Shown: positions 40,872-51,457 of the stretch, one piece after another
Layout: each line of letters starts with the position of its first letter
Numbering within the stretch: position 1 is the stretch's first letter
Origin: Chlorobiota bacterium
GTDB taxonomy: Bacteria > Bacteroidota > Bacteroidia > Bacteroidales > B39-G9
Assembly: GCA_013152655.1 (NCBI GenBank)
Contig: JAADFW010000145.1
Coordinates: 1-56,845, forward strand
Direction: 5' to 3'
DNA: 56,845 nucleotides
The notes under the pieces: model-generated
What the model was told of the DNA's origin: nothing
The model's input: only the letters and a program-made list of their open reading frames with translations
Databases searched by the model: none
Translations under genes and position numbers: made by a program

Positions 40872-41264
40872 TTAAATATTCTTTGAAATTTCTTCAGCAA
40901 TATTTCTAAATTCCTCGTCAGTAAATTTCAGTTTTGGCCGTGCAAAATTAATATCGTGCAAATTGTTTATCGGAATCAAATGAACGTGTGCATGAGGTAC
41001 TTCCAGTCCTAAGACAGCAACTCCAACTCTCTTACAATCAACAACCTGTTCAATTGCTTTAGCTACTCTTTTACAAAATACATTCATTTTAGCAATAGTA
41101 GTGTCTTCAATATCAAAATAATAATCTACCTCAACTTTTGGAACGACCAGAGTATGCCCTTTTGCAAGCGGATTAATGTCTAAAAAAGCATAAAAATCAT
41201 CATCCTCAGCAATTTTATAGCTGGGTATCTCACCTTTAATAATTTTACTAAATATTGTTGCCAT
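40872..41264 (-). CDS. HIT-family nucleotide hydrolase
   Basis: A 130-residue protein of the HIT (Hint) branch that hydrolyses nucleoside phosphoramidates and related compounds. The His triad is in LEVPHAHVHLIPI. The start MATIFSKIIKGEIPSYKIAED and the middle DINPLAKGHTLVVPK are typical. It is transcribed 35 bp after greA. Confidence 0.95.
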   Translation of the reverse strand: MATIFSKIIKGEIPSYKIAEDDDFYAFLDINPLAKGHTLVVPKVEVDYYFDIEDTTIAKMNVFCKRVAKAIEQVVDCKRVGVAVLGLEVPHAHVHLIPINNLHDINFARPKLKFTDEEFRNIAEEISKNI

Positions 41265-41299: not shown

Positions 41300-41773
41300 T
41301 TAAAGAGAAATTTCAACTATTTCAAATGCAATTTCCCCAGCCGGTGCAATTATTTCAACTATATCACCAACTTTTTTTCCCAATAATCCTTTTGCTATTG
41401 GAGTATCAATAGAAATTTTTCGCAATTTTAAATCAGCTTCGCTTTCTGAAACTATTTGATATTCCATTATAGCCTGATTTTTTTTATTTTTTATTTTAAC
41501 CTTTGAAAGTATTTGTACTTTTGAATTATCCAGTTGTGTTTCATCAATAATTCTTGAATTTTGTATTGATTCTTTCAACTTAGAAATTTTCATTTCTAAA
41601 AGCCCCTGTGCTTCTTTAGCTGCGTCGTATTCAGCATTTTCCGACAAGTCTCCTTTATCTCTGGCTTCAGCTATTTGTTTAGATATTGCAGGGCGTTCAA
41701 CATTAATCAATTGATCTAGTTTTTTCCTCAACTTTAGTAATCCCTCTTCAGTAATTAACGAAACATTTCCCAT
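41300..41773 (-). CDS. greA: Transcription elongation factor GreA
   Basis: Stimulates transcript cleavage by paused RNA polymerase. The N-terminal coiled coil contains ARDKGDLSENAEYDAAKEAQG, with the conserved acidic tip, and the C-terminal FKBP-like domain ends with SPIAKGLLGKKVGDIVEI-type sequence (here DTPIAKGLLGKKVGDIVEI). The length is 157 residues. It leads a two-gene unit with the HIT gene; only a weak TATATTTT -7 candidate precedes it. Confidence 0.97.
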   Translation of the reverse strand: MGNVSLITEEGLLKLRKKLDQLINVERPAISKQIAEARDKGDLSENAEYDAAKEAQGLLEMKISKLKESIQNSRIIDETQLDNSKVQILSKVKIKNKKNQAIMEYQIVSESEADLKLRKISIDTPIAKGLLGKKVGDIVEIIAPAGEIAFEIVEISL

Positions 41774-41840: not shown

Positions 41841-41880
41841 ATAAAAAAGAATCCCGATATCAATCGGGACTCTTTTATTT
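41841..41880. terminator. Terminator after the PorV-like gene, bidirectional in form
   Basis: ATCCCGAT and ATCGGGA-type arms with flanking A and T runs (AAAAAAGAATCCCGAT / ATCGGGACTCTTTTATTT) form a stem with T tracts readable on both strands. On the minus strand it ends the TonB receptor/T9SS/PorV operon, 35 bp after its last stop codon. Confidence 0.85.
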
Positions 41881-41910: not shown

Positions 41911-42957
41911 CTATAAACTAACTTTAGCTCCTATAGTATGAACACCGAAAAACGGGTCAGTAAACCGATAAGAGTAATCTACAGAAAAGGTAGAGCCTTT
42001 TTCTTTATTCAATGGGATATTAACAGATGCACCAAAAGCAGGGCCTGTAAAAGCAGTTTGCCTGCTATCATCTAAAATACCCTTCTCATATATAAACCCG
42101 CCTCTTAAATCCAACATTTTCATTATAGAGAGTTCCATACCAAGGTGATATTGGTCTTTTGTAAAGGAATTACTGGTAAAATTAGCAGCAGTTGTTAAAG
42201 TTAAATTCTCTGATAAATAAAAGTCGTAAGTAGCACCTATTTTAATTAAAGATGGTAATTCAAATTCAGCTGAACGCTGTTCAACAGTCATTATCACACC
42301 TGTTGGAACAGTTCCCCTAAAAGACATTCCATCACCTTTATAACTCATTGGAGGCCCAACATTCTTTAAAGTAATTCCGAACTTAATTTGTTCTGCTTTC
42401 CCTGTAACATATTGAATACCTGCATCAAAAGCCACACCACTTGTTTTCAAGTCAGCTATGCCACCAGAAACAATTTTCATAGTCAATCCGCCATAAATAC
42501 TATTTGAAAATTCTTTTGCAAACGAAATAGAAATATTCGTGTATTGAGGATGAAATGTTCCTAAACCTCCATCAGGCAATTCAACAGTTGTAATCTCTAT
42601 TTCACCAATATCTAATGACATGATTGCTAAACTTAATACTCCAGACTCACCGACTTTCTGAGATAATCCAAATGAATTAATGTGAATATCACTTCCAACA
42701 AACCAATTTGTTCTGGCAAAAATTAATTCAGTAGAACGGGTAAATGCTGTTCCGGCCACATTCAAATAAACAGCTTCTAATCCTCTTACAGAAGCAACAT
42801 TAGCACCACCAAAACCGGATGTTCTTGCCCATGGATTTATTAATAATTCACTTGCACCTGCCTGGCCGGCTCTTTGTTCGTTGCCGGCAAATAAAGCTAT
42901 ATTGTGCATATTAAAAACAAGCAGAAAACATAGTATATTTATTATACGCTTTTTCAT
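41911..42957 (-). CDS. PorV/PorQ-family outer-membrane beta-barrel protein
   Basis: A signal peptide (MKKRIINILCFLLVF...LFAG) is followed by the family start GASELLINPWARTSGFGGANVASVRGLEAVYLNVAGTA, recognisable as PorV/PorQ (UPF0164, FadL-like). The remaining chain alternates amphipathic strands to the C-terminus FGVHTIGAKVSL. The length is 348 residues. PorV carries T9SS cargo from the translocon to the surface attachment complex, and PorQ-like members are less well known. This copy lies 55 bp behind a T9SS cargo gene and a TonB receptor gene, so it may be a dedicated partner rather than the global PorV. Confidence 0.88.
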   Translation of the reverse strand: MKKRIINILCFLLVFNMHNIALFAGNEQRAGQAGASELLINPWARTSGFGGANVASVRGLEAVYLNVAGTAFTRSTELIFARTNWFVGSDIHINSFGLSQKVGESGVLSLAIMSLDIGEIEITTVELPDGGLGTFHPQYTNISISFAKEFSNSIYGGLTMKIVSGGIADLKTSGVAFDAGIQYVTGKAEQIKFGITLKNVGPPMSYKGDGMSFRGTVPTGVIMTVEQRSAEFELPSLIKIGATYDFYLSENLTLTTAANFTSNSFTKDQYHLGMELSIMKMLDLRGGFIYEKGILDDSRQTAFTGPAFGASVNIPLNKEKGSTFSVDYSYRFTDPFFGVHTIGAKVSL

Positions 42958-43011
42958 TTTATTGTTATTTATTTATATATCAGCTTTTATTTTATTTTTA
43001 CTCTATTCTAA

Positions 43012-46000
43012 TTAAAATGCATTCAAGTCAATTGGCCTGAGAGATCCAAACCATTTAAGGATTTTCTCTCCAATCCCATCTGCATCTATATATATAATAT
43101 ATACACCACTGGCTATAGAAATTCCATAACTGTTTTTTAAGTCCCAGTCAACATAAGAAATATTATTGTCTTTCTTAAATCGTCTTACTAAAGTTCCATT
43201 AATTGTATATATTGAAATTGTACACTTTTGTGGTAAATTAGTAATTTTTACAAGATTTTCTAATTGAGAACCTTCATATTCTGAATATCCTTTATAAGGA
43301 TTTGGAACTATATTAATGTCATCTAAAGAGTTTTTAAGTTCTTCAGTATTATTAGTTATAGCAGCTATATCAGATAAATCAAATGAATATAATGGATAAT
43401 TATTGTTTTCATTATCTGATTTAGCAAACCCAAATAAATTTTTACTATAAGGTTGAGCAGTTCTAATTTTTATAGTAATATCAGACGACAAGAAATCAAA
43501 ATTTGGATTAGTATAAGGAATAGCACACCACATAGGGTTTTGCCAAACATGTACTTTATCTAAAGAAACACCACTGGTTAAAGATTTATAGATATATTTT
43601 CCTTCATCATATGCTGGCATATAAATAGAAGTATCATTTACTCCAGAAGAATTAACTCTTATTTTTTCATTATGCCCCATTACATAAATATAATGTTTAC
43701 CACCTAACAAAGGAAATCCACTATTTCCGCCTGTTAAAAAAAACAATAAATCATTAAGATCAGCAGTAGGATTAAACATCATATCCCTTCCATTTTGTCC
43801 AAGTAACCAAGAGTCTTCCCCAAACATCATATTTAAACGTTCTCCGGTAGCTATATCAATGGCATAACCCGGAAACCAACTCATTCCATGCGTTCCACTA
43901 TTATCAGGATTTCCGTCTTTATCAACTGAAGGAGCACTTCTTAAATCAAATTTTGCTGCATGCCCTTCTGACAATACAGAATTTTCAGCCATTTCAATTA
44001 CAGGGCATCTTGTCCATTTATCTTTATCGCTTGTAATTACAAGATCAATACTAGACAGCCTGTAATCTTTAAAATTTATAGCAGAAGCCGGATTAGCAGA
44101 TTTCCATACAGGCCCGTATTTATCACTTGAAGCAACAGCATAAGGAGCCCACCTCCCGTCAATAATTTTTTCGTAATATGCATCAGGGTCTTTTCCTCCG
44201 TAGTCTTCTACACCACTACCAGTTTGCGATCCTGAACGTATCCAATTTAACGGCGAAGAACCGTCAATGTCGGGGAAAAAATCTAACCAGGGGCTTCCCG
44301 GATTCTCATATTCCATTGAAGATGAAATAATTCCATTCTTTTTACTAACCAAAAAATTACCATTGTCAAGCTGGAAATACTGCGATTTCCCCCCTGGAAA
44401 CTGAACCTGGTCAATACTAACAGATATACCCCATTCCGGTATTAATTGTTCATTTTGATATCTTATCCATGACTCCGAAAACACGGTATCATCAAAAGTA
44501 TTACTCTCATTATCTCTTTTTAAAAGCATCCATTTTGTATCTAATATTAATCCGTATAAATTAATATTCGCACTATCTGAATTTGAATAATGATTGGGCT
44601 TAATTAAAGATGAATCAGGAGAAAACGCTAATATAAAATCTGCATCCGGTACATTTAACGGATCGATAACTTTTACAGTTACCGGGCCATGCCCATTCAT
44701 GTATGTTGGCGAAGGATCTTTCCAGGGAGAACCACTCATTATTTTATCAAGAGACTCCTGAGTTAATTCCAACTCATTGTATGCATTTCCTTTTCCCTCT
44801 ATTTGAACAATTTTAGGGCCGTCACCGTAATCAGATTGTATTGTTGTTCCTCCCTGAAGTGAATTAACCGGATGTGGAATCACTTCCTGAACCTGTATTG
44901 CTCCTTCTGCCCCTTTTCTACTGGCTAAATAAGGCTTCTTTTGTCCGTTTATAGTCAAAGGATCATTTTGATCATAGTGTAAAAAGTCATTATATGCATA
45001 CGCTATGGCTACATAATAGTACTTTTTATAATTTACCAATTGCCTGCTACTTGAAGCAAAATAATCATCAGTAACTGTAAAAGTATGAACTATGCCATCA
45101 TTAGCACCATTTACTTCTTCAACAGGAATATTTGCTCCTAATACATCATCCCATTCATAATTAACTAATTGCGAAACACCATCTTTTATATCACACTGAA
45201 AAATTAAACGAGCTAAATCAGGACTATGTATGTCTGTAATAGAAACTGTAGCATCCTTTAATTGAAATACCTGATATCCCTGAAATCTGTAATTTACGTC
45301 GCAATCTAATATTACATCAGGATTATCAGGATCTGTAGGACAAATAATAAATGGGTCTCTATCAGCATATTGTTCTAAATAGTTATTCGAATTTGGGTTA
45401 TTTGATATTTGAAAAATTATTTTCCCATCTAATTCTATTACAGAAACATCTGGTGCATCAGGCCCGTCAATTACTTTAAAACAATTCTCAAATAATCTTT
45501 GGGCTTTATCATCAGCACGTTGTACCTGAATTACAGATGAAAAAGGAGTTCCTGATTGTGCCCTTGCCCAAACAGCACCCAACGTTATATCGTTTACAGC
45601 ACCTGGTTCTAAAATAAAAGGGCCGGCAGATTGCACAAAACGTCTATCGCCGGGAGTATTTCCCTCATTTTGTTCAGACCATGCACTTGGTTGAGGAATT
45701 CCTGAAGTACCCCATCCACATGGGTCTGTATCATTTGGAAACATAAAATTAGCTGAAGGGCCACCGGACTTATAACCAGTACCTCCGTATTGCATTACAT
45801 TTCCATCTTTCCATATTCCTTTCAAGTAATTATAATGATCAAGAGCTGTAACCGGATCACTTGTAGCGTCAGCTCCACCATTATTAAAATACAAATAGCG
45901 GCGCATGCCCCAACGTTCATTATCAACTCTTGCATCGCCAAAATTTAATCCATTAATATTTCCATTAAAAATATCTGAAGCTCCTCTTAATACAATAGGA

Positions 46001-47187
46001 GCATCATCTGCATCATATTCTTTTCCATACCCGTTTGAACAGTCTAAATTATTATTTGCATCCCAATTTCTTAAATTATCCAATCCATCAGGATCCTGAT
46101 AAGGCCCTTCAAAAAAATCTATTCCAATGGCAGGAGGGTTTTTCCCATAAGTGTTTCCATTTCCATCTCCATCCGTGGCTTCACCATTATATAAGTAACC
46201 TAATCCTTTGTTTACATCACATCCCACATAATCATCATACGGATCTCCCAAATCAGCATCTGTCCATACTCCAAAATAAGTATCTGTTAAAGTAAATGTT
46301 GAACGGTTAATAATTTCATAATTATAAAAGGTCATATTATTTAATTCATCATTAGTTGAAAAAGCAAAAGCCTGAGCTCTAAATTCCATGCCAATTGCTG
46401 CTGCACCGGTTGTATGAGTATGAATATTCCCTTTGTCGTTATAAACCCACCATAATGTCTTATCTCCAAATAAACGAACCACTCTGTCTTCAACAGAAGT
46501 ACCACATTTTTCTTTTCCGTCTAAATCGTAGTACGGATAATCCCCCTCTCGCGGATTGTAAAATCCATCGCCATTAACATCCCAGAAAGGTGCCAGATAT
46601 TGAGCATAGCCATTCGCCATATCACCATTTCCCGGCCAGTTTAGAATAACATCCGGTATGGAGTAATTAGGAAAATCATTAGCTCTGGTGTTGGCATCTG
46701 CATTTGACCATGCTCTGAATTTAGCAACCTGTTGCCTGGTTATAACAAAATGCTTATCGTAAGCCACACAAACATCAGGTGTAACACTGGCAATTCCTTC
46801 TCCTTCGGTAATTAAAGGCCCCGGCCAAAAATCATATCCATTAGTTCTATATTTTATAGCAGCAAGCCTTAATTGCCCATTAATATCAACTCCACCAACC
46901 CAAATAGCACCTGCAAAAAGAGAATTTTTTCCTGAACCTTTAGGAACCTCATATCTGGGATCACCATTACCATCCCACCACATATCACCACCAGTCATAA
47001 TTAATGTCCTCACATTATTCAAATCCAGTTCAGTCATTGCAGAAGGCGGAATACAACCAGCTGTAGCTGATTTTACAGTATTTCCTGATTTTGTAGATTT
47101 GCTTTTTAATGGTTGTTCACCATAACTAACAAATGCTATTACAAATGCTAATAAAAACGTAAATGAAAGCTTTTTTAGATTTTTCAT
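43012..47187 (-). CDS. Giant secreted protein with type IX secretion C-terminal sorting domain
   Basis: A 1391-residue protein with a signal peptide (MKNLKKLSFTFLLAFVIAF) and a type A-like T9SS sorting domain over the last ~85 residues: NIVPNPYKGYSEYEGS, KCTISIYTINGTLVRRF and YGISIASGVYIIYID. The chain then ends KWFGSLRPIDLNAF, longer than the usual Lys-rich end. The middle is rich in Asp, Gly, Asn and aromatic residues, with calcium-loop-like stretches such as DGDGNGNTYG and DVNGDGFYNPREGD and beta-sandwich-like repeats. No enzyme motif was found. It lies 37 bp after the TonB receptor gene and 55 bp before the PorV-like gene. Confidence 0.85.
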   Translation of the reverse strand: MKNLKKLSFTFLLAFVIAFVSYGEQPLKSKSTKSGNTVKSATAGCIPPSAMTELDLNNVRTLIMTGGDMWWDGNGDPRYEVPKGSGKNSLFAGAIWVGGVDINGQLRLAAIKYRTNGYDFWPGPLITEGEGIASVTPDVCVAYDKHFVITRQQVAKFRAWSNADANTRANDFPNYSIPDVILNWPGNGDMANGYAQYLAPFWDVNGDGFYNPREGDYPYYDLDGKEKCGTSVEDRVVRLFGDKTLWWVYNDKGNIHTHTTGAAAIGMEFRAQAFAFSTNDELNNMTFYNYEIINRSTFTLTDTYFGVWTDADLGDPYDDYVGCDVNKGLGYLYNGEATDGDGNGNTYGKNPPAIGIDFFEGPYQDPDGLDNLRNWDANNNLDCSNGYGKEYDADDAPIVLRGASDIFNGNINGLNFGDARVDNERWGMRRYLYFNNGGADATSDPVTALDHYNYLKGIWKDGNVMQYGGTGYKSGGPSANFMFPNDTDPCGWGTSGIPQPSAWSEQNEGNTPGDRRFVQSAGPFILEPGAVNDITLGAVWARAQSGTPFSSVIQVQRADDKAQRLFENCFKVIDGPDAPDVSVIELDGKIIFQISNNPNSNNYLEQYADRDPFIICPTDPDNPDVILDCDVNYRFQGYQVFQLKDATVSITDIHSPDLARLIFQCDIKDGVSQLVNYEWDDVLGANIPVEEVNGANDGIVHTFTVTDDYFASSSRQLVNYKKYYYVAIAYAYNDFLHYDQNDPLTINGQKKPYLASRKGAEGAIQVQEVIPHPVNSLQGGTTIQSDYGDGPKIVQIEGKGNAYNELELTQESLDKIMSGSPWKDPSPTYMNGHGPVTVKVIDPLNVPDADFILAFSPDSSLIKPNHYSNSDSANINLYGLILDTKWMLLKRDNESNTFDDTVFSESWIRYQNEQLIPEWGISVSIDQVQFPGGKSQYFQLDNGNFLVSKKNGIISSSMEYENPGSPWLDFFPDIDGSSPLNWIRSGSQTGSGVEDYGGKDPDAYYEKIIDGRWAPYAVASSDKYGPVWKSANPASAINFKDYRLSSIDLVITSDKDKWTRCPVIEMAENSVLSEGHAAKFDLRSAPSVDKDGNPDNSGTHGMSWFPGYAIDIATGERLNMMFGEDSWLLGQNGRDMMFNPTADLNDLLFFLTGGNSGFPLLGGKHYIYVMGHNEKIRVNSSGVNDTSIYMPAYDEGKYIYKSLTSGVSLDKVHVWQNPMWCAIPYTNPNFDFLSSDITIKIRTAQPYSKNLFGFAKSDNENNNYPLYSFDLSDIAAITNNTEELKNSLDDINIVPNPYKGYSEYEGSQLENLVKITNLPQKCTISIYTINGTLVRRFKKDNNISYVDWDLKNSYGISIASGVYIIYIDADGIGEKILKWFGSLRPIDLNAF

Positions 47188-47223
47188 TTGAATATTTCTT
47201 AATATTTATTCTTATTTACTTAA

Positions 47224-50200
47224 TTAAAAATTTAACTGAATACCTAATTGCATTCTTCTGGGTAAACTATACCGCTGTGGTGCATTCATTGCCATTGTAT
47301 AATAATTTCGATAAGCAGTTTCATCTATTTGATCTCCTATTATACTCTGATATCCGGAAAAATTTAAATATCCATCATCATCCGGATTACCGGTTGTTTC
47401 AAATACGTCACGAATGTTAATCGTATTCAGAAGGTTTGAAACATCGAGATAAACTGTGAGGTATCCGGATTTTTTATTTGCATCATCTCCTTTACCCCAA
47501 TTCAACATAATATCTTTATCAAGACGCATGTTAATAGTAGTTCTCCATGGTTTTGTCGAGCCATTTATTGAACCAATTAAATAATTGCTTTGTTGTTCTC
47601 TTTTGCTGTAAGGTGTTCCTGACCCTGAATTAACAATAAAATTGACACCTGTATTTGCCAGAATATCCATTCCAAACCATTTTGGCCCATTGTATGCTTT
47701 TCCATCACCAAAACGATAATCAGCAACTATAGTAATAGCATGGCGCTGATCAAAATTAAATGGCAATAAGGTTCTAAGGTTAGGTTGGTCTGTACGTAAT
47801 AAGTTTCGTGCCGTATTTGGGTCAGAGCCCGTACCATTTGCAAATTGTAAAGTATATGCAGCACGCAAACTAATATTTCCAGTCCTTCTTAAATCAAAAG
47901 TAATTGTTATTCCTTTAACTGTACCAAAATCAATATTTCCATAAGTAAAATACTTAATAGGATAAGCACCATTCATAACAATAACTTGTGTCATATTTCT
48001 CATCTCGCGATAAAAAGCTGAAAGTTTTAAAGAAGAAGAATTTGTAAGTTTTTGTTGAAAACCCAGTTCATAATCTATTGTTTTTTCAGGCTTTAAGTTT
48101 GGATTATTAATAAAGTTACTTCCTCTGGTATATATGAAAAGATAATCAATAGGGTTCATTATCACCTGATTTGTTGGCCTTTTAGATAAAACATCGTAAT
48201 GAGCAAAAAATAATGCCACATCTGATATTGGGAAAGAAAATGATATTCTCGGCATTACAGTTACCTGAGGTTCATAATCTTTAAAAGCCGAAGCATTTAA
48301 CGCTTGTCCGGGGTTTTCAAGATAAGGCGCAACATTTCCTGTAGCAGCATTAATTATTGATGGATCATTAATTTCAGCTCCGGTTGCATCATACCAAACC
48401 ATGTCATTTCGAAATCCTTTAATTTTCGTAGGGCTTTCTGAATTGTCAACATAAACAACATAGTCATCACCAATGTTCTCCGGAATTTTACCAAGGTAAT
48501 AAGCAGAATTAGGATCTTTTATTTGTCCTGCTGTTTTACTCTCGTATAACAAGAATGGGTCTTTAAGTACCATTTGATTGGCATCAAAGCGGTCAACCCT
48601 AAGGCCCACATTGAAAATTAAATCGTTAAAAGCAAATTTATCTTGAACATATGCAGCTACATAATTTGGCATAAATGGTGCTTTTTTACGACTATATCTA
48701 ACATTTCCAACTTCATCAGTAAAAGTTTCTGTGAAAAAATCTTCAAAACTCGGAGTCCCTTTTATTTTTTTTCCATGATGATCGTAACCATAATAATTTA
48801 CATAAGAATTACCACTATTAAATAATTCATCAGCGCTAAAATAATCAACAGAGAAATTAGAAACATCATAAGAGTCAATATCAATCCAGGTTGTACTTTC
48901 AAGGGTTTCACTTTCATCTAATTGTCCTGTTTCAATAAGGTGTTTTCTAAAACGAACATCGAACAAAGACTGTGCATTTCCATTATATAATCTATCATAA
49001 GAAATTGTATCCTGAAATACGCCGGCAGCATCATATACCGGATTAGGCTTACTATAGTCAAGCTCTAATATATGGTTATTCATTAAGTCTCTTGCTAACG
49101 TCCATAAACCTACCGGAGAAACTGAGTACCAACGATCCTCTCTTTGTTCAAATTCAAAGCCCACAGACAATTCATGGTTTTTTATATCAGCAGCTCCGGA
49201 TGCAGAAATTCTAAATTGTGTGTTATCCCATTTAAAGTAACCATCATACTGTTCGCCGGGGGCACTAAATAATTGGTAAATTGAAGGAGGGGCTTGTCCG
49301 TTAAGAATACCTCCTGCATTTTCAATATTTACAAAATTTGCATATTGTCCATAAAAGTTATTATCGTACAACTCATAATATCGTTTAGTGTACCATGCAA
49401 TTTCAGGATTTATATCAGAAGCTTCAAATTCAACCAAAGTATCCTTAAATCCATTATGCAATCTTCCGTAATAGGGCAATCCTGCATTTTGAGCAACGGT
49501 ATCGACTAAATAATTAATTGTATATGAATTAATCTTATGGGTTGTAAATTTCCCCACATAACCATATTGGAACAATCTGTCTTTATGGGTATCGTCTTGT
49601 TGTAATCCTAAATCTTTAGAATAGTCAGCTTGAATTGAATAATATACATTTTTTATTATAGAATTAGATTCTTCACTTGCATTTGAATTAAATTTTTGAG
49701 TAAATCGTAAAAAAGTTCGCCATGTTGTCCTAATTCGCTGAGGGTTATTTTCTGAATTAAATAAAGCATTTTGCCATCCTCTATTTCCGGCAGGGTCAAA
49801 GTTCATATTTCCTCTGCTAAATGTATAATCGTGCCTGTTTGAGTAATCAAGGTTTCCTCCAAGTGTAATATTTATATTTTTAGTTGGCTGAAAATCAAAT
49901 TTCGCTGCCATATTAACTCCGTATTTACCAACATTTTGTCGGTATTTTATTTTTTCGAATGCATCCTTTTGTAAATAATCAGCAGTTTGAGTAGTTACTA
50001 ATCCTGTACTAGAACCAATTATAGGATTTTGAACTATACTATCATACATATCATCCTTTACTTTCCAATTTCCAATTGCAGAAGGATTGTCATCCTTCAC
50101 ATACGTAAATTCTGTTGATATGAAAAATCCTGCTACTGGTTTTTTAACAATTTTAGTAGAATCATTATAATCAGGAACCTTTTTAGAAAACATTGGCCCG

Positions 50201-50961
50201 CTTAAATTAAAACCAAATAAATTATCGCTATACGGATCAAGCAAATGAGAAGTATAAACTTCCATACCGCCAAATAAAGTTTTAGATGGCCCTTTAGTAG
50301 TAATACTTACAATTCCTCCCGTTGCATCACCATATTTTGCTGCCAAACCTCCAGTAACCATTGTTACTTGCTCAATTGCAGCCTTAGGTATATTGTTACT
50401 ACCACGAACTTTTACACCATCAATGTAATAAACCGTTGCTTCTTCTCTTGCACCCCGAACACTCTTAATTTCACCATCTTCAGTATATACACCACCAACA
50501 GTAGAAGCAACCGATTCAGCTGATCGGCCAGACATTTTTGCAATTTCCTCAGAAGTTACAGTACCTCCGGTTTGGGTATTATCTTTATCAATAAGAGGTA
50601 CTTTATAACCTATAACCTTAACTTCTTCAATTTCTTGAGTTGAAGCTGTCATTTTCAGGTCAACAAAAGTAAACTTATCAGCTTTTATTACTACACCGGT
50701 CATTTCAAGGTGTGTATATCCAACAAAAGAAGCTTTTACCGTATATTTTCCGGCAGGAATAGGTTTAATAGTATAATTTCCATCAAAATCGGAAATTCCT
50801 CCCCCCATTTGATTTCCATTTAATTCAACTACAACATTAGCAAATGGAATTGGTTCTCCAGTAGCATCATCAGAAATTTTCCCTTTTAATGCTCCTGTTT
50901 GAGCAAATATACCAAGCGAAAATAATAATGCAAACGAAACAAGAAGTGTTTTTCGCAACAT
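47224..50961 (-). CDS. TonB-dependent outer-membrane receptor with carboxypeptidase-like regulatory domain
   Basis: A signal peptide (MLRKTLLVSFALLFSLGIFAQ) precedes a CarboxypepD_reg-like beta-sandwich (residues ~22-105: GALKGKISDDATGEPIPFANVVVELNG). The plug domain follows (about 125-225, with SAESVASTVGGVYTEDGEIKSVRGAREEATVYYIDGVKV and GGLAAKYGDATGGIVSITTKG), then a 22-strand-type barrel ending in LQLGIQLNF-like residues with a terminal Phe. The length of 1245 residues is large for the class. It is not SusC-like by context, as no SusD follows. It leads the three-gene operon, and a promoter lies 43-75 bp upstream. Confidence 0.93.
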   Translation of the reverse strand: MLRKTLLVSFALLFSLGIFAQTGALKGKISDDATGEPIPFANVVVELNGNQMGGGISDFDGNYTIKPIPAGKYTVKASFVGYTHLEMTGVVIKADKFTFVDLKMTASTQEIEEVKVIGYKVPLIDKDNTQTGGTVTSEEIAKMSGRSAESVASTVGGVYTEDGEIKSVRGAREEATVYYIDGVKVRGSNNIPKAAIEQVTMVTGGLAAKYGDATGGIVSITTKGPSKTLFGGMEVYTSHLLDPYSDNLFGFNLSGPMFSKKVPDYNDSTKIVKKPVAGFFISTEFTYVKDDNPSAIGNWKVKDDMYDSIVQNPIIGSSTGLVTTQTADYLQKDAFEKIKYRQNVGKYGVNMAAKFDFQPTKNINITLGGNLDYSNRHDYTFSRGNMNFDPAGNRGWQNALFNSENNPQRIRTTWRTFLRFTQKFNSNASEESNSIIKNVYYSIQADYSKDLGLQQDDTHKDRLFQYGYVGKFTTHKINSYTINYLVDTVAQNAGLPYYGRLHNGFKDTLVEFEASDINPEIAWYTKRYYELYDNNFYGQYANFVNIENAGGILNGQAPPSIYQLFSAPGEQYDGYFKWDNTQFRISASGAADIKNHELSVGFEFEQREDRWYSVSPVGLWTLARDLMNNHILELDYSKPNPVYDAAGVFQDTISYDRLYNGNAQSLFDVRFRKHLIETGQLDESETLESTTWIDIDSYDVSNFSVDYFSADELFNSGNSYVNYYGYDHHGKKIKGTPSFEDFFTETFTDEVGNVRYSRKKAPFMPNYVAAYVQDKFAFNDLIFNVGLRVDRFDANQMVLKDPFLLYESKTAGQIKDPNSAYYLGKIPENIGDDYVVYVDNSESPTKIKGFRNDMVWYDATGAEINDPSIINAATGNVAPYLENPGQALNASAFKDYEPQVTVMPRISFSFPISDVALFFAHYDVLSKRPTNQVIMNPIDYLFIYTRGSNFINNPNLKPEKTIDYELGFQQKLTNSSSLKLSAFYREMRNMTQVIVMNGAYPIKYFTYGNIDFGTVKGITITFDLRRTGNISLRAAYTLQFANGTGSDPNTARNLLRTDQPNLRTLLPFNFDQRHAITIVADYRFGDGKAYNGPKWFGMDILANTGVNFIVNSGSGTPYSKREQQSNYLIGSINGSTKPWRTTINMRLDKDIMLNWGKGDDANKKSGYLTVYLDVSNLLNTINIRDVFETTGNPDDDGYLNFSGYQSIIGDQIDETAYRNYYTMAMNAPQRYSLPRRMQLGIQLNF

Positions 50962-51003: not shown

Positions 51004-51036
51004 TAAATATATGTAATATGATACAATATTGCCAAA
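51004..51036 (-). promoter_or_regulatory. Promoter of the receptor/T9SS/PorV operon (TTTG-N21-TATATTTA)
   Basis: On the minus strand TTTG (51033-51036) and TATATTTA (51004-51011) are 21 bp apart, one mismatch from the TAnnTTTG element. The same TATATTTACAA string occurs before marR. Transcription would begin near 50996, giving a leader of about 35 nt. Confidence 0.5.
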
Positions 51037-51070: not shown

Positions 51071-51457
51071 TTAGAATTGTTTTCTGTTTATAATCTCAGA
51101 GTATATTATTGCATTTTTTAAATCAAATTCAATTCCTGCGTCCTCTTCGTTTAAAATAATATCAAAATCTTTTATTGGTGTTTTATCAGGTATTACATCT
51201 TCTCCTTCAATAAAAACAGGCTCGGTTTTTTTTGTTTCTATTTCTACTTTTTCTTCATACTCAGTTGTTGGTTCAGGGGTATTTTCAACCATATTTGAAA
51301 TACCTGACTGAAGAACATCCATGAAATTAAACGGTTTTTTTTGTTCACTACTTCCTGTAATATTTTGTGTTGGTTTTTTCTTCTTTTTAAGAGCTGAAGC
51401 GATGATTATTATGGCACTTATTACAATATATAAAATGCTTTCCCAATTTTTATCCAT
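51071..51457 (-). CDS. Small single-pass membrane protein, function unknown
   Basis: Not recognised. There are 128 residues: one N-terminal membrane segment (ESILYIVISAIIIIASAL), a run of five Lys (KKKKK) that should stay in the cytoplasm, then a polar Glu/Thr/Pro-rich region (PEPTTEYEEKVEIETKKTEP) and the end EFDLKNAIIYSEIINRKQF. Similar short N-anchored acidic proteins are common in Bacteroidota and uncharacterised. It lies 41 bp downstream of the basic protein gene at 51499 and 109 bp before the receptor operon, from which a promoter separates it. Confidence 0.65.
   Translation of the reverse strand: MDKNWESILYIVISAIIIIASALKKKKKPTQNITGSSEQKKPFNFMDVLQSGISNMVENTPEPTTEYEEKVEIETKKTEPVFIEGEDVIPDKTPIKDFDIILNEEDAGIEFDLKNAIIYSEIINRKQF

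Follow-up and report, generated by a model that had tools for sequence, protein, structure and literature searches.

In the SusCD systems, the gene for a TonB-dependent receptor lies next to that for its large surface partner. In SusC/SusD, RagA/RagB and BtuB/BtuG alike, receptor and partner are adjacently encoded, conserved pairs, and the partner is a surface lipoprotein. Pairing of another kind, between a surface protein and an outer-membrane barrel, occurs in the Porphyromonas gingivalis attachment complex, where the T9SS-exported proteins PorU and PorZ keep their long CTDs and are anchored by the PorV/PorQ-family barrels PorV and PorQ, respectively (PMC5562754). In length, CTDs that are retained (96 and 108 residues) exceed those that are cleaved (67 to 88 residues; PMC11285876). 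Cargo with type B CTDs, as in Flavobacterium johnsoniae, uses dedicated PorP/SprF shuttles encoded as cognate cargo-shuttle gene pairs, and unlinked cargo paralogs can share one shuttle (PMC12618676). Finally, in the Bacteroidota BAM complex, the FadL-type barrel BamG stands on BamA and holds the surface protein BamH via extracellular loops, in a set that includes no TonB receptor (PMC12578637, PMC12611786).

The locus described here has elements in common with all of these. The window, by which we mean the whole stretch of DNA analyzed, consists of 56,845 nucleotides from Chlorobiota bacterium (assembly GCA_013152655.1, contig JAADFW010000145.1), a member of the class Bacteroidia. It encodes, consecutively, a TonB-dependent receptor, a 1391-residue protein that we label Big, and a barrel of the PorV/PorQ family that we label PVQ. 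Our main reading, to which we assign a probability of roughly 0.55, is that this operon encodes one outer-membrane surface complex, with T9SS-exported Big sitting on PVQ and working with the receptor. The parts belong to known families; a full-text search of the open literature, with subscription papers and preprints outside its scope, found neither a description of a receptor-cargo-PorV trio nor an account of such a combination. The features of the locus are as follows.

40872..41264, minus strand: gene for a HIT-family protein, a kept neighbor of the trio in Bacteroidia
41300..41773, minus strand: greA, transcript elongation factor, likewise a kept neighbor of the trio in Bacteroidia
41845..41876, minus strand: terminator-like hairpin between PVQ and greA, 14 pairs with a T tail (terminator scan, the scan not being significant)
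41911..42957, minus strand: PVQ, 348-residue outer-membrane barrel of the PorV/PorQ family, in a separate clade (NF033709, tree)
43012..47187, minus strand: Big, 1391-residue surface protein with a Sec signal peptide and a T9SS-type CTD (ORF, NCBIfam, AlphaFold)
43015..43335, minus strand: Big residues 1285-1391, PorZ/PorU-like T9SS CTD, one of the most strongly conserved stretches of the protein (NCBIfam, Foldseek)
43015..43050, minus strand: Big residues 1380-1391, FGSLRPIDLNAF, conserved tail past the usual end of a T9SS sorting domain (motif-to-end lengths)
45463..47055, minus strand: Big residues 45-575, best conserved region, one compact fold (alignment, AlphaFold, Foldseek)
46546..46581, minus strand: Big residues 203-214, DVNGDGFYNPRE, calcium-loop motif resembling those of EF-hands and dockerins, conserved family-wide (sequence and alignment consensus)
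47224..50961, minus strand: TonB-dependent receptor, 1245 residues, with a carboxypeptidase-regulatory-like N-domain, plug and TonB-type barrel (Pfam)
51004..51036, minus strand: weak Bacteroidota-type promoter candidate, TTTG-N21-TATATTTA, one mismatch to consensus, upstream of the receptor (sequence)
51071..51457, minus strand: small protein of 128 residues with a single membrane helix at its N-terminus, encoded immediately before the receptor

The three genes follow one another on one strand in the order receptor, Big, PVQ, with gaps of 36 and 54 bp by ORF coordinates. A first-pass annotation of the same DNA had described these three ORFs and their family assignments, all of which were recovered using Pfam and NCBIfam, with conservation exceeding what that annotation could see. 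It was right about the close packing of the genes, although its spacings of 37 and 55 bp need correction. The single terminator it placed downstream does correspond to a hairpin with a T tail after PVQ, but the terminator scan as a whole returned five sites versus 4.7 in shuffled sequence, which is chance level. The single upstream promoter it proposed is not established. A sigma-70 scan gave 62 matches versus 55 by chance, and the sole exact Bacteroidota-type match near the operon in a consensus scan falls within the receptor gene. Because the scans perform at chance level, no promoter can be claimed, and the candidate TTTG-N21-TATATTTA is no evidence of function.

The receptor exceeds Pfam cut-offs for CarbopepD_reg_2 (59 bits), Plug (32.5 bits) and the TonB barrel (40.6 bits), and thus has the plug and TonB-type beta-barrel of a TonB-dependent receptor. 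Its orthologs in 21 genomes show 39 to 63% identity. The order of receptor followed by surface partner, together with the size of the receptor gene, resembles SusCD/RagAB, and the SusC/RagA model TIGR04056 gives 79 bits for a receptor from another class, so that one might suspect a disguised system of that type with the receptor as SusC and Big as a SusD-like lipoprotein. That score, however, is far under the cut-off of 368 bits, and the window receptor has no match to the model. Big is much larger than SusD and would have its own holding barrel; it carries a T9SS CTD, whereas the partners in SusC/SusD, RagA/RagB and BtuB/BtuG are surface lipoproteins. It has no SusD/RagB domain by Pfam, and its signal sequence does not end in a lipobox: no cysteine directly follows the signal helix, and the invariant Cys45 is about 20 residues beyond. 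Membership in SusCD/RagAB is contradicted by these findings, which makes the suggestion very improbable, although a similar way of working is possible.

Big has the makeup of a T9SS CTD protein, defined by a Sec signal peptide plus a C-terminal Ig-like beta-sandwich with motifs B, D and E; its N-terminus is hydrophobic, CTD motifs B and D are present, and the CTD motif glycines are invariant in the alignment. The T9SS signal is confined to the last hundred residues. Among NCBIfam models, the CTD of Big matches PorZ best (4e-10), followed by the generic sorting-domain model (2e-4) and PorU (2e-3), and the PorZ match recurs in Big from another class. Scores on the sorting-domain model TIGR04183 straddle its cut-off of 23 bits, at 21.2 bits for the whole protein and 24.8 bits in the genome scan. 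Searching the PDB by Foldseek with the predicted C-terminal half of Big gave a single match below an E-value of 0.001, to PorZ (5m11, E 7e-5). Lower in the list, above that threshold, are 8glk_D (TMt 0.69) and 8gl8_D (TMt 0.66), which are the CTDs of NucA and RemZ caught on PorV in the translocon, and PorU (6za2). This resemblance of the predicted fold to PorZ and to PorV-bound CTDs confirms, at the level of a structure model, that Big does carry a sorting domain, though a divergent one.

The CTD of Big spans about 107 residues and carries a conserved extra tail of about nine residues. From the G-x-Y motif to the C-terminus there are 31 residues in Big versus 20 to 23 in 27 of 30 ordinary cargo proteins of the same genome. 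The tail is retained in and beyond Bacteroidia, with D-L-N-x-F or L-D-R-F as frequent endings. In both its length and its closest relatives, by sequence and by predicted fold, the domain agrees with the PorU/PorZ kind, which would suit a CTD that is retained. If Big were ordinary T9SS cargo instead, its export would go via PorV, PorU would cleave it and a glycolipid would serve as its anchor, with PVQ a general or unrelated barrel left in the operon by history. Ordinary cargo is abundant in the window's genome, where about 100 type A CTD matches exceed the cut-off, long-type CTDs undergo cleavage in Prevotella (PMC11969387), and motifs B and D are found in Big as well. The CTD of Big is nevertheless nearer to the retained PorZ and PorU domains than to the cargo of its own genome, its extended tail is conserved across classes, and PVQ and Big stay together even as paralogs multiply, all of which leaves the ordinary-cargo explanation quite unlikely.

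For the remainder of Big, no relation to PorZ or PorU was found, and no domain of Big reaches its cut-off in Pfam. Full-length identity is 44 to 61% to 22 aligned full-length relatives. AlphaFold models of the two halves of Big are confident, with pLDDT values of 92.4 and 89.2 and pTM of 0.90 and 0.88. Compared by Foldseek to solved structures, the best conserved region, residues 45-575, shows a weak beta-supersandwich resemblance (best TM 0.24), which is the only ligand hint that the body fold provides. The resemblance of the N-terminal half to the beta-supersandwiches of GH94, GH116 and dextran dextrinase reaches an E-value of 2e-6, but with a TM of 0.24 and an rmsd of 14 A the likeness is not strong enough; since no catalytic domain turned up either, the identification of Big as a carbohydrate-active enzyme was rejected. 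Within this region, the loop DVNGDGFYNPRE resembles a calcium-binding loop and is a putative calcium-loop motif. Cysteines 45, 140, 228, 323 and 569 are invariant or nearly so across the family, with 45, 140 and 569 among the invariant residues, a pattern suggesting that the body of Big contains a metal site or disulfides with a structural role. One locus (L073, 5502-11577) encodes three tandem short relatives of Big, 650 to 704 residues long; the one tested has an ordinary sorting domain above the type A cut-off, and the N-terminal module of Big therefore also occurs with normal cargo signals.

PVQ belongs to the PorV/PorQ family, scoring 134.5 bits on NF033709 against a cut-off of 90. It falls far under the equivalog cut-offs for PorV (NF033710, 53.7 of 250 bits), PorQ (NF033711, 60.8 of 220 bits) and PorV2 (NF052325, 43.7 of 325 bits). 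In a maximum-likelihood tree, PVQ sequences from in and outside Bacteroidia form one clade with support of 100/97, apart from PorV, PorQ and PorV2. True PorV, PorQ and PorV2 genes are located elsewhere in the window's genome, as is a fourth PorV-like gene. The equivalog cut-offs and the tree rule out that PVQ is a copy of PorV, and the dedicated PorV-like barrel of the first-pass annotation thus holds up as a family of its own. The premise behind that proposal, that PorV normally serves all cargo, needs correction, as PorQ is the partner of PorZ (PMC5562754) and type B CTD cargo uses dedicated PorP/SprF shuttles (PMC12618676). Because these pairs exist, a dedicated PorV/Q-family barrel is not without precedent, but no earlier case was found in which the operon also encodes a TonB receptor. 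The locus resembles PorZ-PorQ and PorU-PorV in joining a T9SS-exported protein bearing a long CTD to a PorV/Q-family barrel, with the CTD closest to that of PorZ in sequence and fold; it differs in the separate clade of PVQ, the inclusion of a TonB receptor and the extra conserved tail. It resembles the type B system in its cognate gene pairing and differs in that the CTD of Big is type A and PorZ-like and PVQ is not PorP/SprF. The porU and porV genes are neighbors in the window's genome too, with a PorU-like sortase beside the start of porV at a contig end (L190, 6102-9935). The same genome encodes a second large PorU-like protein of 1627 residues (L191, 6342-11225).

Big was present in 34 of 60 genomes, counting the window's own, and in 31 of 57 genera. 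All relatives with a full-length Big and enough room on the contig have the order receptor, Big, PVQ, nearly always followed by greA and the HIT gene. Big is missing from more than 20 of the 57 related genomes that have a PorV match, an observation that counts against our model. Among named public genomes, over 560 relatives were found, and the trio occurs in about two thirds of the best 80 loci (Bacteroidales, Flavobacteriales and others); the remainder are mostly lone Big genes, many from Crocinitomicaceae. When 25 genomes with lone-Big loci were searched for PVQ, 23 held exactly one, and in all 20 PVQ loci fetched from those 23 genomes Big is directly upstream, with the receptor before Big wherever there is room. 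Lone copies are therefore mostly second paralogs in genomes that also hold a trio, rather than counterexamples to it, and we counted in favor of the model that nearly all genomes with a second, unlinked Big hold exactly one PVQ, in a trio. Unlinked second copies in single-PVQ genomes (L107, L110, L118, L132, L137, L153 and others) retain the CTD along with most of the tail, and may thus share that genome's single PVQ barrel, as unlinked type B cargo can share one PorP/SprF shuttle.

A phylum survey used a PVQ profile to search 393 evenly drawn Bacteroidota genomes, and found matches in 134 at an E-value of 1e-40 or better and in 109 at 1e-54 or better. PVQ is patchy in Bacteroidia, with seven survey genomes besides the window's own, and frequent in other classes, with up to five copies per genome. 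Of 60 loci outside Bacteroidia, fetched by PVQ alone, 57 have Big directly upstream and 52 have the full trio, with the receptor before Big, while for Bacteroidia loci, many of them fetched through Big, the corresponding counts are 100 of 100 and, where there is room for a receptor, 95 of 95; these counts include some loci twice, and full trios with distinct PVQ sequences number 136. Median intergenic gaps within trios are 34.5 and 29 bp. Since greA and the HIT gene are not adjacent outside Bacteroidia, the trio itself is the conserved unit. Its conservation is far beyond chance, and the three families are anything but rarely adjacent in other genomes, the circumstance that the first-pass annotation had named as fatal to its idea. 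Judged by this gene order, the trio is an ancient, apparently inseparable set across the phylum Bacteroidota. The secretion system that Big would need shows a matching distribution. SprA, scored at an E-value of 1e-150, occurs in 317 of 393 survey genomes; once two split matches are counted, 134 of 134 PVQ-positive genomes have it, versus about 185 of 259 others. A count over 42 PVQ-positive genomes likewise gave SprA in all 42, so that PVQ is found only with SprA, as expected for a T9SS-dependent family. Because the genomes are related, no probability is attached to this association.

Fifteen genomes outside Bacteroidia carry two or three trios, which allowed a swap test in which partners were exchanged among paralogs within a genome and tree distances were correlated over 2000 swaps. 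The correlation between receptor and Big was 0.926 versus a swapped mean of 0.43, that between Big and PVQ 0.777 versus 0.385, and that between receptor and PVQ 0.821 versus 0.47, and for each pair none of the 2000 swaps reached the observed value. The trees indicate that fixed sets of three, rather than single genes, were duplicated and went on to diverge. Such co-inheritance fits a joint function, although tight linkage alone would contribute too; against our model, linked genes co-inherit without contact as well. Adjacency could in principle reflect operon inertia with no joint function, much as greA and the HIT gene are kept beside the Bacteroidia trio with no obvious functional link. Outside Bacteroidia, however, greA and HIT are gone, yet the trio is still there and its members duplicate together, and we give inertia hardly any credence. 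The earlier suggestion that the three genes act as one unit is borne out both by conserved order and by this co-inheritance of paralogous sets.

Neighboring genes were also surveyed. Across the orders of Bacteroidia, the trio is almost always followed by greA and the HIT gene; they are probably not part of its function. The small 128-residue protein upstream of the receptor has a conserved C-terminal motif, FDLRKAVIYSEILNR / FDLRKAVIYSEILNRPY. Small single-helix genes precede the receptor in about half of Bacteroidia trios, with a median gap of 115 bp (mostly 90 to 130 bp), and their product is possibly a fourth component in Bacteroidales or a regulator. About 16 Bacteroidia loci encode, farther upstream, a LytTR response regulator and a sensor histidine kinase of the propeller type (Reg_prop, Y_Y_Y). 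Examples are found at L046 (2-2437), L067 (7618-10764) and about 15 other Bacteroidia loci, in an arrangement like that at regulated uptake loci. At L067, the kinase gene comes directly before a copy of Big, and genes of the same size are similarly placed in L079, L083 and L093. The 1048-residue product encoded upstream of Big in some loci was considered as a different receptor, and the one tested is a propeller-type histidine kinase. Outside Bacteroidia, a GWxTD-domain protein of about 455 residues is encoded just behind one trio tested (L297, 9501-10868). Similar-sized genes lie behind several other trios outside Bacteroidia.

These surroundings bear on what the complex might do. It may be that the Big-PVQ pair holds, but that the trio serves to build the envelope, along the lines of BamG-BamH or the T9SS attachment complex, with TonB energy used for surface assembly, remodeling or signaling rather than for import. 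Deep conservation and a fixed position beside greA and HIT in Bacteroidia resemble a core function more than a diet-specific locus, no conserved enzyme gene was seen next to the trios examined, and the Bacteroidota BAM complex offers a precedent for a surface protein held by the loops of a FadL-type barrel (PMC12578637). Pointing the other way, the receptor has the complete plug and barrel domains of transporters, patchiness in Bacteroidia and several trios per genome elsewhere suit ligand-specific transport better, and the kinase and LytTR genes of about 16 Bacteroidia loci recall regulated uptake loci. On balance, we consider an envelope-building role unlikely.

Under our main reading, that of a surface complex of all three products, Big would be exported through the T9SS translocon SprA, and it would be neither cut nor glycolipid-anchored like ordinary cargo, so that the CTD is kept and Big remains at the cell surface. 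There the extracellular loops of PVQ would hold Big, as PorV does PorU and PorQ does PorZ. The body of Big would work with the co-transcribed receptor; its most likely part would be that of a lid or a partner that captures ligand, comparable to the role of SusD on SusC, and the receptor would import a ligand with Big's help. The proposed mechanism, as the most parsimonious reading, joins the precedent of an uncut CTD on a barrel, from PorZ-PorQ and PorU-PorV, with the SusCD precedent, and Big would be both. We infer, with good support, that Big is exported by T9SS and pairs with PVQ, which probably holds it on the cell surface. CTD retention together with Big-PVQ binding seems likely, contact between Big and the receptor is slightly favored, and import by the receptor with Big has about an even chance. 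The fullest version of the proposal is a phylum-wide TonB-dependent uptake machine with a T9SS-exported giant partner, whose uncleaved, tail-extended CTD sits on its own barrel; it would make Big-PVQ a third pair beside PorU-PorV and PorZ-PorQ, and the trio a T9SS counterpart of SusCD. We offer it tentatively, at somewhat less than even odds.

If the proposal is true, T9SS and TonB-dependent transport, two hallmarks of the Bacteroidota outer membrane that are treated as separate, would be joined in one ancient machine. That machine would be present in many uncultured lineages, with as many as five copies of PVQ in one genome. It would also become possible to test what determines the fate of a T9SS cargo protein, whether release after cleavage or retention on its carrier barrel, and the Big family, with its conserved tail and exclusive barrel, suits such a test.
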